A model generated the notes under the pieces. It did no database searches. It was not told the origin of the DNA and saw nothing but the letters and a program-made list of their open reading frames with translations. Shown here piece after piece: positions 5,170 through 11,052 of a stretch of 64,000 nucleotides of DNA. A program made the position numbers and the translations under genes. Source of the DNA: Infirmifilum lucidum (GTDB taxonomy: Archaea; Thermoproteota; Thermoprotei; Thermofilales; Thermofilaceae); NCBI RefSeq assembly GCF_014876775.1, contig NZ_CP062310.1:682001-746000 (forward strand), written 5' to 3'. Within the stretch, counting starts at the first letter, position 1, and each line of letters starts with the position of its first letter.

Positions 5170-6009
5170 CTAGCGTGGCCTCCTCCTACCACACGGCGGG
5201 TTGTGGGGGTCTGGAACCACGACGTGTAGGAGCTTACACCTGCTCCTGGCCTGGTCGTAGAAGAGGCACGTGAAGCAGGTTCCCGCTAGCTCTCTGGCCT
5301 GAGCAGGGGGCTGTTGCGCTACGGGTTGCGGTTGCGGCTCTCGGGCCTGCTGGGGCTCCGGCTTTACCTGCTGCTTCTGCTCAAGTCGTTGAGTACCGGG
5401 CAGGGGTTTAGGGTACTGTGGGGCCTGCTGGGGCGGCCGGGGCCTAGCCTGCTGCGGCTGGAGCAGTGACTTGGCCTGCGGTTTGGCGGGCTGTACGGGC
5501 CTAGGCTCCTGCTCTACAGGAACTTCTACTGGGGCCAGCTCGATGGGAGGCGGCGCTTCAGCTGGCTCCCTAGGCTGTGGCGCAACAGGCTTCACGGCCT
5601 GTGAGGCCCCTATCTCTCTACGGGGGGCTTCTGCTTGTGGGAGCCTTTCTTCCGGCTGTGCCTCGAGCGGCGCTATGCTCGCGAGCTCCGGGGACAGGCC
5701 CTGTACCAGGAGCCTTATCTCCTGGCGGTTCAGGTACCTGCCTTCGACCGCCTTCTCGCCGTCGACCACGACTGCTGGTACTGCTCTAATGCCGTACTTC
5801 TTGAACTCGGCCACGTATATCCCGCCGAAGACCTCCTCGAGGCTCTGGAGCCACTCCTCGAACTTCGACGGATCCTTCAGGCTGAGTAGCCTCACCATGA
5901 GCTTGGGTCTCTCGCCTCTCGGGATAGCGTTTAGCTCGGCTTTGAATGCGTCGAGCATCTCCTGGGCTCTGTGGTCGCGCGGGAGGAATACTTTAATCTC
6001 TTTGACCAC
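5170..6009 (-). CDS. Thioredoxin-fold protein with Pro/Gln-rich linker and C-terminal Cys4 motif
   Basis: 279 residues in three parts. Residues 1-105 look like a thioredoxin-like alpha/beta domain with a VPAVVVDG segment (the typical cis-proline, P78), but without the usual CxxC at the active site. Residues about 110-240 are a low-complexity linker very rich in proline, glutamine, alanine and glutamate. The last 35 residues hold C245, C248, C258 and C273 (CFTC...C...PPC), a likely zinc or Fe-S site. The start is GTG 6009. The upstream element GATAACTTAATTATT (6051-6065, reading minus) is identical to one before PCNA and predicts a leader of about 20 nt. There is no signal peptide, so it is probably cytoplasmic. 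The missing thiol pair argues against a simple disulfide reductase; a scaffold or metal-sensing role is only a guess. Confidence 0.75.
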   Translation of the reverse strand: MVKEIKVFLPRDHRAQEMLDAFKAELNAIPRGERPKLMVRLLSLKDPSKFEEWLQSLEEVFGGIYVAEFKKYGIRAVPAVVVDGEKAVEGRYLNRQEIRLLVQGLSPELASIAPLEAQPEERLPQAEAPRREIGASQAVKPVAPQPREPAEAPPPIELAPVEVPVEQEPRPVQPAKPQAKSLLQPQQARPRPPQQAPQYPKPLPGTQRLEQKQQVKPEPQQAREPQPQPVAQQPPAQARELAGTCFTCLFYDQARSRCKLLHVVVPDPHNPPCGRRRPR

Positions 6010-6050
6010 TTAGCCCACCACTAGCTCCTACACTGTCTCTCGACGGACAT

Positions 6051-6065
6051 AATAATTAAGTTATC
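6051..6065 (-). promoter_or_regulatory. TATA-like promoter element of the thioredoxin-fold gene
   Basis: The minus strand reads GATAACTTAATTATT here. The A/T core would place transcription start near 6029, about 20 nt before the GTG start. The same 15-mer occurs upstream of PCNA at 19375-19389. Confidence 0.55.
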
Positions 6066-6089
6066 TTTTCGAATGAACTCCAGTAGGGC

Positions 6090-6734
6090 CTAGAGGGGTA
6101 CTTCGAGGAGCCTCTCCGTGACGTCTCCCCTCGGCGTCACCTCGACGAATATCTGCGCCTGGAAAGTGTAGACCTTAAGCCTGCCCGTCCTCCAAAAGTC
6201 CTCCGGGAGCCCTGCCTTGAGGCACGAGTAACTGAGGAACTTCTCGACGTCCCACCCCTCCTCCACCGGGACTTGTGGCAGCAGGAGGCCCCTAGCAAGC
6301 CCGTACTCCACGAGGAGCCCGTCCCGCCCCACCTTCACCTTGTCGAGTAACTCTCTGTAGTCCGCATATTGTACTGGCTCGGGCTTCGTCAGGACGCTGA
6401 CCTCGAATACGACCTCGTCTAGCTCCCTGGGCGTGACCGGCGGGAACCTCGGGTCTTCTGTCGCAGCGGCTATGGCCGAGCGAATAGTGGCCTCGGCTAG
6501 GGGGAATAGAGGCTCGGGATAACCTATGCAGCCCCTCAGCTCCCGCCTAGCCTGCCTGGTCACCGGGTTGACCACGATTCTCTCGATCGTGACGAAAACC
6601 CCGGACTTCTCGAGGAGGCTCCTAGGGGTGTCTGATGGCGGGTCGATTATCACCGCCCTCTCGAGGTACTCCTCGACAGCCCTCCTGGCGAGCCTCACCA
6701 GGAAGGCGCCCTCCTCAGCAGAGAGCTTTCCCAT
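6090..6734 (-). CDS. AMMECR1-domain protein
   Basis: 214 residues matching the AMMECR1 family, a conserved fold in archaea and eukaryotes named after a human gene. The diagnostic core RRELRGCIGYPEP is at about residues 64-76, and DPRFPPVTPRELDEVVFEVS follows. Biochemical function in archaea is unsettled; the fold is usually treated as a possible nucleic-acid or small-molecule enzyme. It is the last gene of the minus-strand operon from 11000 to 6090, and its ATG (6734) lies inside the end of the Mut7-C gene (20-nt overlap), implying translational coupling. Its association with a PIN-like RNase and RqcH points toward RNA or translation quality control, which is inference from context only. Confidence 0.92.
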   Translation of the reverse strand: MGKLSAEEGAFLVRLARRAVEEYLERAVIIDPPSDTPRSLLEKSGVFVTIERIVVNPVTRQARRELRGCIGYPEPLFPLAEATIRSAIAAATEDPRFPPVTPRELDEVVFEVSVLTKPEPVQYADYRELLDKVKVGRDGLLVEYGLARGLLLPQVPVEEGWDVEKFLSYSCLKAGLPEDFWRTGRLKVYTFQAQIFVEVTPRGDVTERLLEVPL

Positions 6735-7203
6735 AGACTATGCACCTCACTTTTTCCAGAGTTTTCTCAATCTCCCTAATATGCGTGCCGAGCCAATAAA
6801 CTTGTCCACACCCTGTGCACACGTAGAACTCGCTGTACGCGTCCAGAACTCTGGCCGGTACGAGGCCGGCAACGTCCTCCCGCGAGGCACGCGCGAGCGG
6901 GGAGCCGCATATAGAGCAGAGGGCTCTCTCAGGCCTGAAGATAGGCTCGACGCCCAGCCTCTGGAAGACGTGCGCGAGGACGTCCTCCTCCCTGCCCTCG
7001 GGCACCAGGAGCGCCTTGAAGCCCCTCCTGGAGAGGTGCCTCTGGAGGGCTTTGTCCCTGGTCAGGAAGAGGAGCCCGGGCTTCTGCTCCAGCAGGGTCT
7101 CGATCTCCCTATCGTCTGCCCCGGAGTAGTACAGGGCCCTCACGCCCACCAGCCTGAGCCACCGCGCGAGCTTGCCCAGCATCCCGTCTACCACTACCTC
7201 CAA
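6715..7203 (-). CDS. Mut7-C RNase domain protein (PIN-like fold plus zinc ribbon)
   Basis: 162 residues of the Mut7-C family (formerly DUF82). The N-terminal half is a PIN-like nuclease fold opening with VVDGMLGKLARWLRLVG; D6, D30/D31 and D50 (FLTRD) are the likely metal-binding acidic residues. The C-terminal part is a zinc ribbon with C96, C99, C129 and C132 (CSIC...CTGC). The family takes its name from the C-terminal domain of the animal exonuclease Mut-7 and is predicted to be an RNase. It starts at TTG 7203, immediately next to the stop of the upstream CBS-like gene, and overlaps the AMMECR1 gene by 20 nt, so it is firmly part of the RqcH operon. Confidence 0.9.
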   Translation of the reverse strand: MEVVVDGMLGKLARWLRLVGVRALYYSGADDREIETLLEQKPGLLFLTRDKALQRHLSRRGFKALLVPEGREEDVLAHVFQRLGVEPIFRPERALCSICGSPLARASREDVAGLVPARVLDAYSEFYVCTGCGQVYWLGTHIREIEKTLEKVRCIVYGKALC

Positions 7204-7902
7204 CTACGCCACACCCGCTAGGCTCGGCAGGGCCTTCTGCAGGCTCGAGGAGTCGAAAAAGTATGTTCTATTGCCCTCTCGAACCAGGATCATGGAGTAC
7301 CTCCTGAGGGCCTCTGCCAGATCCATGGACTCCAAGTGGTCTGGCTCGAAGAGCGCTCCGGCCACGCGTGAAACTCTCGTCGAGAGCAGTTTGGGAGCCT
7401 TTAAGTTACGGCTCAGGGCGTAGTACGCCACATCAGCCACTGTCACGAGCTTATAGACGCCGCCAGCGTAGCAGACGGGGAGGGCTATCGCGCCGGTATC
7501 GAGGAAAACCCTAACGGCGGTCTTGAGCGTGGAGTTGCACCTCACGCACGGCAGGCTATAGGGCTTGAGCCTCTCCAGGAATGCGTACTCGCCGAGCATG
7601 CCGCTCTCAAGTATGTAGAGTGAGAGGGAGCGGGGCGTGTAGGCCCTGCCCTCCCTCCTCGACACCAAGTACTGGCCGGACGAGACGCGCTTCAAGGCCG
7701 CGCTAAACCCCGGCACGCCCGATATTGTGACGACCGTAACGCTGCTCCTGCCGCCCACTACTCGGGTCAGCACTGACCCGAGGTAGAGTAGCTCGCCCCC
7801 AAGCGAAACCACCAGGCTCGTGAAAGCCTCCTCTCTCATCTTGTCGAGCGCGTCCCGTAGCCCCCCCGCCTTCAAGACACCCTCGCTGTAGCTAGCCCCC
7901 AA
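7204..7902 (-). CDS. Divergent protein with possible CBS-type domains
   Basis: 232 residues starting at TTG 7902 and overlapping the end of the RqcH gene by 11 nt. Segments such as DTGAIALPVCYAGGVYKLVTVADVAYYAL resemble the strand-helix-strand and (T/S)xxD pattern of CBS domains, and the N-terminal part (MREEAFTSLVVSLGGELLYLGSV) may be another copy; the match is weak. CBS pairs bind adenosyl ligands and often regulate a partner. Two cysteines in PCVRCNS are the only obvious metal-type pair. The position between RqcH and the Mut7-C RNase suggests a shared process. The CBS call is tentative; it could be a lineage-specific fold. Confidence 0.5.
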   Translation of the reverse strand: MGASYSEGVLKAGGLRDALDKMREEAFTSLVVSLGGELLYLGSVLTRVVGGRSSVTVVTISGVPGFSAALKRVSSGQYLVSRREGRAYTPRSLSLYILESGMLGEYAFLERLKPYSLPCVRCNSTLKTAVRVFLDTGAIALPVCYAGGVYKLVTVADVAYYALSRNLKAPKLLSTRVSRVAGALFEPDHLESMDLAEALRRYSMILVREGNRTYFFDSSSLQKALPSLAGVA

Positions 7903-9745
7903 CCCTCACCCACCTCTCCACGTGGAAGGTGCCGGCGGGCAGTAGCTTCAAGACTTCCTCGAGCCCGGCTCTAACCCCGCATTCCCTCCTGAGGAAGTCT
8001 ACAACCTTTCTGGCTGTGAGCTCCCTCGCCAGCGGCCCAGGGGTGAGCTTGAGGAAACACCCCTCTTCGGGGCTACGGGACACAGGAAGGGCCACGAGAG
8101 CGCCCCCGCTGGAGCCGACAAGTAGCTCTAGCGGCACCCCGCGTATCCAGTTCCTCTTGCCGTATATCATGAAGGCGCCCTTGCCCAGGTACTCGCCGCT
8201 GGGCGCGGCCTTCGAGACCTGCGTGGCGGGAACCCAGTAGACGTCTACGGCCATGAGGCCGGCCTTCCAGGCGCTGCTGTAACACGCGGCGAACTGCGCG
8301 GCCTCGAAGATGTCCTTCTCGGGAACCTCCCGGCCGCCCGTCTTCAGTATGGTCGAGGGCGCCCCGTGTATGTCGGCGTGGAGGAATATGTCGTGCTCTT
8401 CCATGTACCTCCTGACCAGCAACTCGTTCTGGCCCGCAGACTTCCCGGCGACCACTAGGAAACCGCTAGACGTGAAGAAGAACCTGAAGTCCTTGTACCA
8501 GGGCCCTCCCCCAGCCCTCCTAGCTGGAACAACAACCTTCTTTGGCTCGGACTTGCTCGCTGCAAGTAGAGGCATCTTCGCCCTCAGGGACTTCGCCTTC
8601 TCGAAGAGAGCCTCGGCGTTGGCGTAGGCACTCCTCCTGGCGTCGACCTCAATGTCGACGCCCCCGAGCGTGAGGGTTATAGACCATTTAGCGTGGTTGA
8701 AGCCCTTGACTTCAGGGTACTTCGCCGCGACCTCCTCCTCTATTGCCCGCCAGGTAGAGCCCTGCTCTCTGAGCGCCCTGTAGTAGTCTATCACTTCCTG
8801 GACTCTGGGCGCATTCTCCATGAGGAGCCTGGCAGAGGCCTCGATAGTCCTCAACGCTTCCTCAGCTCTATCAGCCGGCGTAGCCCCGGCCGCCACCTCC
8901 TCCGGGAGCATGAGCCTAGACATGTATGGCGGGAACTCCTCCTGGAAGTCAACCGGGACGGGCCCGGAGCCTAGGTGTAGTGGCTTGAACGGGTACACTT
9001 CAAACCCGCCCCCAGTCTCAACCTTGTAGCCGCTCCTCTTATCGGCTAGGGCCTCTAGGTATATCTCTCTAGCCTCCTCGAGGACTCTTACAGCGTCTTC
9101 TGCTGAGCTGAGCTTCGATTGCGGGTCTACGCCTAGGCGGAACGCCGCCTCGTAGACGACTTCTGGCGGCAGGGAGGAGGCCTGAGAGAGGGCAGTCACC
9201 ACGTTCCTGCGCTTCAGCGAAGAAGCCTTCTCTACAACCTCCCACGGCGGCGCCGAGAAGTCAGCCAGCTTCGGGGGCGGCTTGTAGGGCTCGCCCCTCC
9301 TTATAGCCCTGTCGCGCATGGTTTTCTCTTCGAGAGCGTAGAGTACCTTCCAGCCTGCGTCGAGGAGGACTATGTTCCCCTCTCTAACCCACTCTAGTAC
9401 GAGCGTGAAGCCCGTGAAGTCCAGCGCCAGCGCCCTGTCGTCGTTTACAACGCTCACAGCGTTTACGCGCTTGCCCTCCAGGTCTCTGAGGGGCTTCAAG
9501 CGGGAGGGGTTTGCCAGCTCCACGCCCCCTAGAGCGGGACACGCCCCGCGCCTTGGGTGGAAGAGCATGACGCCAGACGAGAACTGCAGGACTGTGAGGC
9601 TGCCCTGGACTAGGGCCTTCGCGAGCCTCGAGCCTTCCAAGCTCGCAAACAAGTCCCAGAGCTTGTACACGTCGAGCAGGCTTACACTCCTCCTGCCCCC
9701 CACAGCCGACACGGTGTTGTGGGCGCGTATGTCACTAAATAGCAT
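7892..9745 (-). CDS. rqcH: Archaeal RqcH / NFACT-family ribosome quality-control protein
   Basis: 617 residues with NFACT architecture: an N-terminal NFACT-N domain (SAVGGRRSVSLLDVYKLWD...VLQFSSGVMLFHPRRG), a central helical/coiled-coil region (about residues 280-390), and the C-terminal NFACT-R (DUF814) domain containing DIFLHADIHGAPSTILKTGG. Relatives (bacterial RqcH, eukaryotic Rqc2/NEMF) bind split large ribosomal subunits carrying stalled peptidyl-tRNA and recruit charged tRNA to add C-terminal tails that mark the chain for degradation. The start is ATG 9745. It is flanked by RecA-like ATPases upstream and by a CBS-like protein, a PIN-like RNase and AMMECR1 downstream, all on the same strand with overlaps or gaps under 12 nt. 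Confidence 0.93.
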   Translation of the reverse strand: MLFSDIRAHNTVSAVGGRRSVSLLDVYKLWDLFASLEGSRLAKALVQGSLTVLQFSSGVMLFHPRRGACPALGGVELANPSRLKPLRDLEGKRVNAVSVVNDDRALALDFTGFTLVLEWVREGNIVLLDAGWKVLYALEEKTMRDRAIRRGEPYKPPPKLADFSAPPWEVVEKASSLKRRNVVTALSQASSLPPEVVYEAAFRLGVDPQSKLSSAEDAVRVLEEAREIYLEALADKRSGYKVETGGGFEVYPFKPLHLGSGPVPVDFQEEFPPYMSRLMLPEEVAAGATPADRAEEALRTIEASARLLMENAPRVQEVIDYYRALREQGSTWRAIEEEVAAKYPEVKGFNHAKWSITLTLGGVDIEVDARRSAYANAEALFEKAKSLRAKMPLLAASKSEPKKVVVPARRAGGGPWYKDFRFFFTSSGFLVVAGKSAGQNELLVRRYMEEHDIFLHADIHGAPSTILKTGGREVPEKDIFEAAQFAACYSSAWKAGLMAVDVYWVPATQVSKAAPSGEYLGKGAFMIYGKRNWIRGVPLELLVGSSGGALVALPVSRSPEEGCFLKLTPGPLARELTARKVVDFLRRECGVRAGLEEVLKLLPAGTFHVERWVRVGG

Positions 9746-9754
9746 TACCCCGGC

Positions 9755-10276
9755 CTACACTTCCAGCACTACCCTGGACGGGCAGTAGAAGTCCAGCGCG
9801 AGGCGCCCGTCCTGCCTGGCGACCAGGGCCCTGTGGGTGTAGTAGGCCGAGAAGACCTGCTCGCCGAAGCTCCTCCCCCCGCTCCAGTAGTTTATGAATA
9901 TGGAGCCCAGGCCCCTCGAAGCCCTGTCCACGGCGAGGCCCAAGAGCGAGGCTACGAGCCCCCACCTAGCCCTGTACTCGAGGTCGAAGGCGTGGAAGAC
10001 CCTTGGAATACTGTCGAGGACGACTACGCCCTCCCCGGCCGTGGAAAATGCAGAGAGGAGCTCGAGTGGGTCGCCGGGAGACTCAAAGGAGACGCCGCCC
10101 CACCCGCCGCGGGAGCGCCAGTAGGTTCCGGAGTAGTCGAGGTAGAGGGCAGTGCCGCCCAGGGCTGACAGGAGCCTGCGGGCGGCCTCGCGCCTGCCAG
10201 ACCCCGGCCTGCCCGCCAGCTCGAGCACGAAGCCGCCAGACAGGAGGCTTTTAAGGCTCCTCGACACCCCCCTCAC
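9755..10276 (-). CDS. Degenerate RecA/RadA-like P-loop protein
   Basis: 173 residues. The N-terminal loop AGRPGSGRREAARRLLS (residues about 21-37) has the shape of a Walker A motif, but arginine replaces the essential lysine. EGVVVLDSIPRV looks like a Walker B strand with one aspartate. Overall it resembles a RecA-fold core shortened relative to RadA (about 320) or RadB (about 220). It starts at GTG 10276 inside the last codons of the neighbouring RecA-like gene (26-nt overlap) and ends just before rqcH. A plausible reading is an inactive or weakly active partner of the upstream ATPase, as in paralogue heterodimers; no assay-level function can be inferred. Confidence 0.6.
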   Translation of the reverse strand: MRGVSRSLKSLLSGGFVLELAGRPGSGRREAARRLLSALGGTALYLDYSGTYWRSRGGWGGVSFESPGDPLELLSAFSTAGEGVVVLDSIPRVFHAFDLEYRARWGLVASLLGLAVDRASRGLGSIFINYWSGGRSFGEQVFSAYYTHRALVARQDGRLALDFYCPSRVVLEV

Positions 10277-11000
10277 CTATCCTGAACGTTGCCGACGCGC
10301 GGGGCCAGGGGCTAGACAGAACGACGGCGTCCCTGAGCTCCCCCCTCCGCTTCAGCAACAATGAGAGGCAGGCGTAACCGTCTAGGTGCGCGCCGCCTGC
10401 AGGCGAGACGCCGTCATGCGAGACAACATCCCTAGTTGCCACGACGATAGACCCCGCGCGGGCGACGCGCCACAAGGCCCTCACCACGCTCGAGTACGCC
10501 TCAACCCTCTCCTTCGGGTCTAGGGACTCGGAGCGTATGAGCCCGGTGAGCTCGTCGACGACGAGGAGGCCCGCGTCCCCCGAGACGACCTCCACGAGCG
10601 CCTTCTCCAGTAGCACGAGGAGGTGCTGGAGGCTCAGGGCGCGCGCGTAGGTTATCCCCGACAGGGCCTCCGAGGGCTCAACCCCCCTGGCATAGGCGAT
10701 CGCAATAACCCTCTCGGGCGCGAAGTCGCCCCTCGTGTCTACGAAGACAGCCCTCTTCCCCAGGCCCCCGCTGTCCACCGGGAGCTGGACGTTAACGGAC
10801 AGCTGCATGCAGAGCTGGGTCTTGCCGCCACCGGCCTCCCCAGAGAAGTCGTAGACACAGCCTGGCTCTAGCCCCCCGCCCAGCACTGCGTCTAGAGCGC
10901 TAACCCCCGTCTTCAGTATAGCGGGGGCCTCGCGATACTCTACACCGCGCCTCGGGTACGGGGGTACGGGGAGAATTCCCAGTACATCTGGAACAGGCAC
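10251..11000 (-). CDS. RadA/RadB-type recombinase paralogue (RecA-fold ATPase)
   Basis: A RecA-superfamily ATPase of about 249 residues with the RadA-like segment TGVSALDAVLGGGLEPGCVYDF, Walker A GEAGGGKTQLC (about residues 54-64) and Walker B GLLVVDELTGL. The N-terminal helix-hairpin-helix domain of RadA is absent, so this is a paralogue of the RadB/aRadC kind. I place the start at GTG 11000: a T-rich TATA-like box at 11021-11033 lies 26 nt upstream, predicting a leaderless mRNA beginning exactly there; the open frame could otherwise extend to 11087 into the upstream gene. It heads the operon RecA-like, degenerate RecA-like, rqcH, CBS-like, Mut7-C, AMMECR1. Confidence 0.82.
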   Translation of the reverse strand: MPVPDVLGILPVPPYPRRGVEYREAPAILKTGVSALDAVLGGGLEPGCVYDFSGEAGGGKTQLCMQLSVNVQLPVDSGGLGKRAVFVDTRGDFAPERVIAIAYARGVEPSEALSGITYARALSLQHLLVLLEKALVEVVSGDAGLLVVDELTGLIRSESLDPKERVEAYSSVVRALWRVARAGSIVVATRDVVSHDGVSPAGGAHLDGYACLSLLLKRRGELRDAVVLSSPWPRASATFRIGEGGVEEP

Positions 11001-11002
11001 AA

Positions 11003-11050
11003 TTAGAAAAATGGAAAAAGGTAAAAAAGTTAATTTTTGGTTTAGAGGCC
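11003..11050 (-). terminator. T-rich terminator behind the S-layer-like gene, overlapping the next promoter
   Basis: On the minus strand the 50 bases after the surface-protein stop contain several runs of T (TTTTTTACCTTTTTCCATTTTT), the usual archaeal intrinsic terminator. The same stretch contains the TATA-like element (11021-11033) of the RecA-like gene. Confidence 0.55.
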
Positions 11051-11052
11051 TT

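Follow-up and report, generated by a model that had tools for sequence, protein, structure and literature searches.

A link between AMMECR1 and Mut7-C proteins (arCOG01336-arCOG04290) has been published earlier (PMC6393860), and Mut7-C has been described as an RNA-binding, TOPRIM-like domain whose function in prokaryotes is unknown (PMC11347159). Among the paralogues of the recombinase RadA, knock-out of radC1 in Sulfolobus raises damage sensitivity (PMC4471258). In this study, relatives of these genes were analyzed in a window of 64,000 nucleotides from Infirmifilum lucidum (G000:C1:682001-746000), a Thermofilum-type archaeon whose genome, G000, is a single contig of 1,625,846 bp. Six genes stand there in a row on the minus strand (6090-11003), separated by gaps of at most 9 nt or overlapping by 11-26 nt, and code for two RecA-like proteins, here named REC1 and REC2, RqcH, a CBS-like protein, a Mut7-C protein and AMMECR1 (Table 1). 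The original prediction, made from the letters of this DNA, had described the same six overlapping or nearly touching genes and proposed that they form an archaeal translation quality-control module. Our results confirmed the arrangement, and the row is probably the form taken in Thermofilum by an ancient neighbourhood that occurs across the phylum and consists of three functionally separate pieces, in which the REC pair would modulate RadA. It looks like an old housekeeping gene row rather than a dedicated stalled-ribosome machine.

Profile matches, alignments and trees identified REC1 and REC2 as RecA-fold proteins of RadA descent, in agreement with the prediction of two RecA-fold genes. REC1 scored below every RadA and RadB equivalog cut-off (121.6 vs. 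361 bits for TIGR02236, RadA; 78 vs. 172 bits for TIGR02237, RadB). It starts just ahead of the core domain and lacks the N-terminal HhH domain and the FxxA motif. Its Walker A motif is intact (GEAGGGKTQ), and the catalytic Glu is lost in the window's genome (DTEG to DTRG). REC2 had no Pfam match, and a profile of its family, built from eight orthologues, matched RadA in hhalign (96.5%, E 7e-10); in the tree, REC2 falls in the clade of second tandem paralogues (support 98/91). The Walker A Lys of REC2 is replaced by Arg (GSGR) in 8/8 orthologues and the catalytic Glu is also gone, while the Walker B Asp is kept. A single-sequence structure model of REC2 (pLDDT 47) was too poor for use. Because the Glu is missing from REC1 and both residues are missing from REC2, neither appears to be a functional ATPase in the window's genome. 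The possibility that the REC neighbour is radA itself was ruled out in the window's genome, where the bona fide radA lies elsewhere (G000:C1:480956; TIGR02236, 448 vs. 361 bits). A second full-length RadA-like gene of 328 aa (G000:C1:474489-475181, L093) takes no part in the conversion described below.

Sister genomes showed a stretch of 55-98 codons in REC1 with about 90-100% DNA identity to the radA gene that the same genome carries elsewhere on the chromosome. The identity was 100% over 293 nt in genome G003, 97.9% over 283 nt in G004, 97.9% over 292 nt in G013, 97.5% over 204 nt in G016 and 89.6% over 182 nt in G014. In one genus, REC2 also matched its own radA (98.3% over 177 nt in G016, 99.4% over 167 nt in G014). 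The block, which reaches from Walker A to ARAYNSDH, spans at most approximately residues 132-230 of RadA. A few codons beyond either border, the identity is down to about 40% and blastn can no longer align the flanks. The longest identical runs between REC genes and radA measured 116-293 nt, whereas 2000 permutations gave no run above 32 nt and comparison with the radA of another genome gave runs of 12-25 nt. The remaining codon differences between the G004 block and its own radA are all synonymous. Since the block matches the radA of its own genome, with unalignable sequence around it and a radA divergence of about 23% between species, the sequences indicate that ectopic gene conversion repeatedly rewrites the REC ATPase core in the sister genomes. 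We infer that its direction is from radA to the paralogue. The trees were affected by the same block. When it was kept, the two tandem genes of G016 and G014 grouped together, with the second gene beside REC1; when it was removed, the second tandem genes moved into the REC2 clade (98/91). Three lineages, G000, G001 and G005, have a diverged block, and in the same three REC1 has lost the catalytic Glu; conversion has stopped in the lineage of the window.

Other causes of this identity were considered. Extreme nucleotide constraint was ruled out, because radA of G003 and G004 is only 76.5% identical and their REC1 blocks only 78%, so that the near-identity exists within genomes and is not a general constraint. 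An assembly artefact was also rejected, as the identity occurs in a 1,781,889-bp contig (G004), in a four-contig assembly (G003) and in G016, where all three genes lie on one contig. Matches of 126 nt (G009) and 99 nt (G007) are possibly assembler overlaps and were excluded from the count. The second full-length RadA paralogue was not supported as a conversion partner (about 68-77% identity; 85% over 128 nt in G014 alone). Many draft contigs, those of G008, G009, G011, G020 and G022 and the one with the RqcH-linked copy in G024, break off within the block or at its border, and such breaks are expected at an exact repeat. No published case of conversion between radA and its paralogues was found in the literature searched, which covered few subscription journals, so this absence is weak evidence.

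The neighbourhood is not confined to the genus. Regions of up to 20 kb around RqcH were compared in 60 genomes picked by kinship or family spread rather than linkage; the distant loci came mostly from the 150 best-scoring NFACT matches, which introduces a small bias, and the counts ignore kinship. Mut7-C and AMMECR1 were near RqcH in 12/12 genus and family loci. Outside the order, Mut7-C lay within 8 kb of RqcH in 25/43 loci (19/29 families), against about 0.4 expected by chance. Within the same distance stood AMMECR1 in 21 of these 43 loci, a RadA-type gene in 16 and DNA ligase in 8. A small membrane protein, EMC6-like or similar to it, did so in 25/43, Pfam (PF07019) confirming the main cluster only. 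The recurrent order is radA, a small protein, an EMC6-like gene on the opposite strand, RqcH, CBS, a dihydroorotase-like gene, Mut7-C, AMMECR1 and a glycosyltransferase-like gene, and Mut7-C shares the strand of RqcH in 8/17 phylum-level loci. In many other families, the RecA-type neighbour of RqcH is a bona fide radA. Thus RqcH, Mut7-C, AMMECR1, CBS and RadA or RadA-paralogue neighbours co-occur across the phylum, and the restriction to one genus that would have spoken against the original prediction was not seen. The Mut7-C/AMMECR1 link had been published (PMC6393860), whereas a link of RqcH to this pair was found nowhere in the literature searched, again weak evidence given the few subscription journals covered. 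Two further observations concern these loci. The EMC6-like gene (PF07019; L065:8232-8537, minus strand, with counterparts in many loci beyond the order) stands beside RqcH, usually on the opposite strand, and membrane insertion might be tied to the rescue of nascent chains. In L084:5083-7338, the radA adjoining RqcH has a 751-aa reading frame with an intein-like insertion.

Members of a ribosome quality-control module would be kept and lost together, and the presence of the genes was therefore compared in 299 genomes, all from one archaeal phylum. RqcH was found in 288 genomes, Mut7-C in 280 and AMMECR1 in 274. Mut7-C and AMMECR1 were both missing in 13 genomes, where 1.6 were expected (Fisher p 6e-12, kinship ignored), and all 13 kept RqcH; these co-losses come from three genera of one family (f17), many of whose members are affected. 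Conversely, the 11 genomes without RqcH, two of which are drafts from the window's own family with possible gaps, all kept Mut7-C and AMMECR1. The losses of RqcH and of the Mut7-C/AMMECR1 pair are thus independent. The pair is also adjacent in genomes where it lies far from RqcH, such as G175 and G287. In addition, the row is split by insertions in sister species: a TnpB/Cas12f-like gene separates RqcH from the CBS gene in G001 and G006, and a HEPN/nucleotidyltransferase (HEPN/MNT) pair separates REC2 from RqcH in G003. Because of these independent losses, the adjacency away from RqcH and the insertions, we take it that RqcH does one job and its neighbours Mut7-C and AMMECR1 another.

In the arrangement that we consider probable, the ancient neighbourhood would have run from radA or RadA paralogues through EMC6-like, RqcH, CBS, Mut7-C and AMMECR1 to DNA ligase. 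RqcH, by its family, would most likely extend nascent chains on stalled 50S subunits. Mut7-C and AMMECR1 may form an RNA-related unit that works without RqcH. The most likely role of REC1 and REC2 would be to modulate RadA filaments, as may be the case for RAD51 paralogues and Sulfolobus RadC1, and ectopic gene conversion would keep their ATPase core matched to RadA in many sister species. We infer that the REC pair works with RadA and not with RqcH. In RecA and Rad51 filaments, and likewise in those of RadA, the ATP site lies between adjacent subunits, and having the core of RadA would therefore be an advantage for any partner entering the filament. A stronger version, in which REC1 and REC2 are obligate co-subunits of the RadA filament and core copying is selected since the inter-subunit ATP site must be shared, is conceivable though doubtful. 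If it were true, the recombinase's own reaction would keep its regulators matched, and once conversion was lost they could give up catalysis, the state found in the window's genome. Several points weigh against the three-piece arrangement. A neighbourhood of such depth normally implies a functional tie, and RqcH, Mut7-C and AMMECR1 are repeatedly found as neighbours. A few lineages account for the losses, and a single family with three genera for the co-losses. No conversion was seen in the window's own genome, G001 or G005, and the tie of REC1 and REC2 to RadA is predicted from sequence.

The dedicated quality-control operon of the original prediction would assign a step to every gene. RqcH would tail the chain, Mut7-C would cut or hold the mRNA or tRNA, AMMECR1 would modify RNA, the CBS protein would sense adenylates, and the RecA pair would provide an ATP-driven step. 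The tight overlapping row, the closeness of RqcH, CBS, Mut7-C and AMMECR1 phylum-wide and the RNA binding of Mut7-C (PMC11347159) fit such a machine. We nevertheless regard it as improbable, because Mut7-C and AMMECR1 are lost or kept independently of RqcH, the same neighbourhood holds radA, ligase and a dihydroorotase-like gene, a shared strand is found in fewer than half of the phylum-level loci, and insertions split the row. The ATP-dependent engine also loses ground, since the two RadA paralogues lack catalytic residues in the window's genome. At the opposite extreme, the genes may merely be seldom-broken inherited housekeeping strings, with radA conversion as a functionless by-product of leftover homology. 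The mixed housekeeping content of the neighbourhood would agree with this, conversion is expected for any duplicate that retains a few hundred nucleotides of similarity, and it ended in G000, G001 and G005. Such a neutral history is rather unlikely, as the proximity in 19/29 families outside the order far exceeds chance and the same block is maintained by conversion in several genera while its flanks are distinct. Moreover, REC1 and REC2 are under selection, and the G004 block differs from radA by synonymous changes only.

The limits and upkeep of the row can be read from comparisons between species. The ratio dN/dS against G001 was 0.08-0.28 across all six genes (0.19-0.26 for REC1 and REC2), which indicates purifying selection, and so none of them has the appearance of a pseudogene. 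In the genome of the window, the sequence suggests that the six genes are probably co-transcribed. The single visible promoter of the original prediction is supported only in part: the 49-nt spacer upstream of REC1 holds a T-tract kept in several species, which may act as a terminator for the large surface-protein gene upstream, as a promoter, or as both. AMMECR1 is probably the last gene of the row, because a conserved promoter-like element, GATAACTTAATTAT, stands downstream of it and ahead of a thioredoxin-like gene. A sigma-70-type promoter scan was uninformative, as expected for archaea. The thioredoxin-like protein (window 5170-6009), whose middle part is long and rich in Pro and Gln and whose C-terminal tail is rich in Cys, starts the new unit, and its gene stays beside DNA ligase across the order.

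Table 1. Features of the six-gene row in window coordinates, and loci compared for radA identity
Feature	Position	Strand	Remarks and evidence
REC1	10251-11003	-	RadA paralogue; PF08423 (Rad51) 122 bits, alignment, trees
REC2	9755-10276	-	Degenerate RadA paralogue; 26-nt overlap with REC1; orthologue alignment, hhalign, tree
RqcH (NEMF/Rqc2 family)	7892-9745	-	9-nt gap after REC2; NF041120, NFACT-R_1, structure matches
CBS-like, degenerate CBS-domain protein	7204-7902	-	11-nt overlap with RqcH; CBS score, hhalign, conserved position
Mut7-C protein (PIN/TOPRIM-like and zinc ribbon)	6715-7203	-	0-nt gap after CBS-like; PF01927
AMMECR1 protein	6090-6734	-	20-nt overlap with Mut7-C; PF01871, TIGR00296
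Spacer, surface-protein stop to REC1 start	11004-11052	-	Conserved T-tract (terminator and/or promoter); cross-species comparison
Spacer after AMMECR1	6010-6089	-	Conserved promoter-like GATAACTTAATTAT, next transcription unit; cross-species comparison
radA/RqcH-linked paralogue identity	L035:6611-7372		Compared with L100
radA/RqcH-linked paralogue identity	L036:7780-8532		Compared with L099
radA/RqcH-linked paralogue identity	L038:7746-8534		Compared with L101
radA/RqcH-linked paralogue identity	L041:7279-8755		Compared with L103
radA/RqcH-linked paralogue identity	L040:516-2130		Compared with L102

The identity of RqcH was borne out as well. The protein passed the archaeal RqcH model NF041120 (417.6 bits, cut-off 400), matched NFACT-R with 124 bits and matched the structures of NEMF, Rqc2 and RqcH. 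The DR motif of NFACT-N is required for tailing, and D103-R104 of the window's protein aligned with the DR motif of Rqc2. Elsewhere, a 13,647-aa open frame was reported around an NFACT match (G217:C1:936236), perhaps a masked stretch. The CBS-like gene had a single CBS match just below the cut-off (23.3 vs. 24 bits), and its family profile matched the CBS gene that follows RqcH elsewhere (hhalign 95.6%, E 1e-8). Profile and position identify it as a degenerate descendant of the two-CBS proteins found after RqcH in other families. A single-sequence structure model of it reached a pLDDT of 36. In many families, the two-CBS protein after RqcH carries a C-terminal CxxC...CxxC zinc ribbon (L065:10545-11093, L064:10506-11075, L090:10555-11112), and the Thermofilum version has lost most of these features. 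The Mut7-C protein matched PF01927 with 119 bits and shows CxxC pairs, the zinc-ribbon cysteines. AMMECR1 matched PF01871 with 182 bits, scored above the TIGR00296 cut-off and has relatives of known structure (PDB 1vaj, 1wsc, 1zq7).

A new ribosome-rescue machine would be a tempting yet weak story, and two testable facts take its place. The deeply conserved neighbours of RqcH (CBS, Mut7-C, AMMECR1, EMC6-like, RadA) are leads for several poorly understood families. The overwriting of paralogue cores by radA is a natural experiment on the recombinase surfaces that helpers must share, and on the loss of catalysis once overwriting stops. It also means that core-domain trees of RadA-like genes mislead in this group and that draft contigs break at the repeat.

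Compared with known systems, the RqcH of the window resembles archaeal RqcH, NEMF and Rqc2 (NF041120, PF05670, PF05833) in model score, NFACT-R domain and DR motif; however, it is shorter (617 aa vs. approximately 660 in the phylum) and its NFACT-N match is partial. The Mut7-C and AMMECR1 genes show the adjacency already published, here with a 20-nt overlap, and differ in following RqcH and the CBS gene directly. Broadly similar to RadC1 and RadC2 of Sulfolobus, RadB and the eukaryotic RAD51 paralogues, REC1 and REC2 are RecA-fold relatives of RadA that lack the N-terminal domain. REC1 and REC2 differ in falling below the RadB and RadA cut-offs, in forming a tandem pair beside RqcH, and in having an ATPase core that radA has overwritten in sister species. 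The tracts resemble concerted evolution by gene conversion, in which paralogues within a genome are closer than orthologues between species and the tract is sharply bounded. Here, however, conversion joins a recombinase gene with diverged paralogues of itself, and the ATPase core alone is homogenised.

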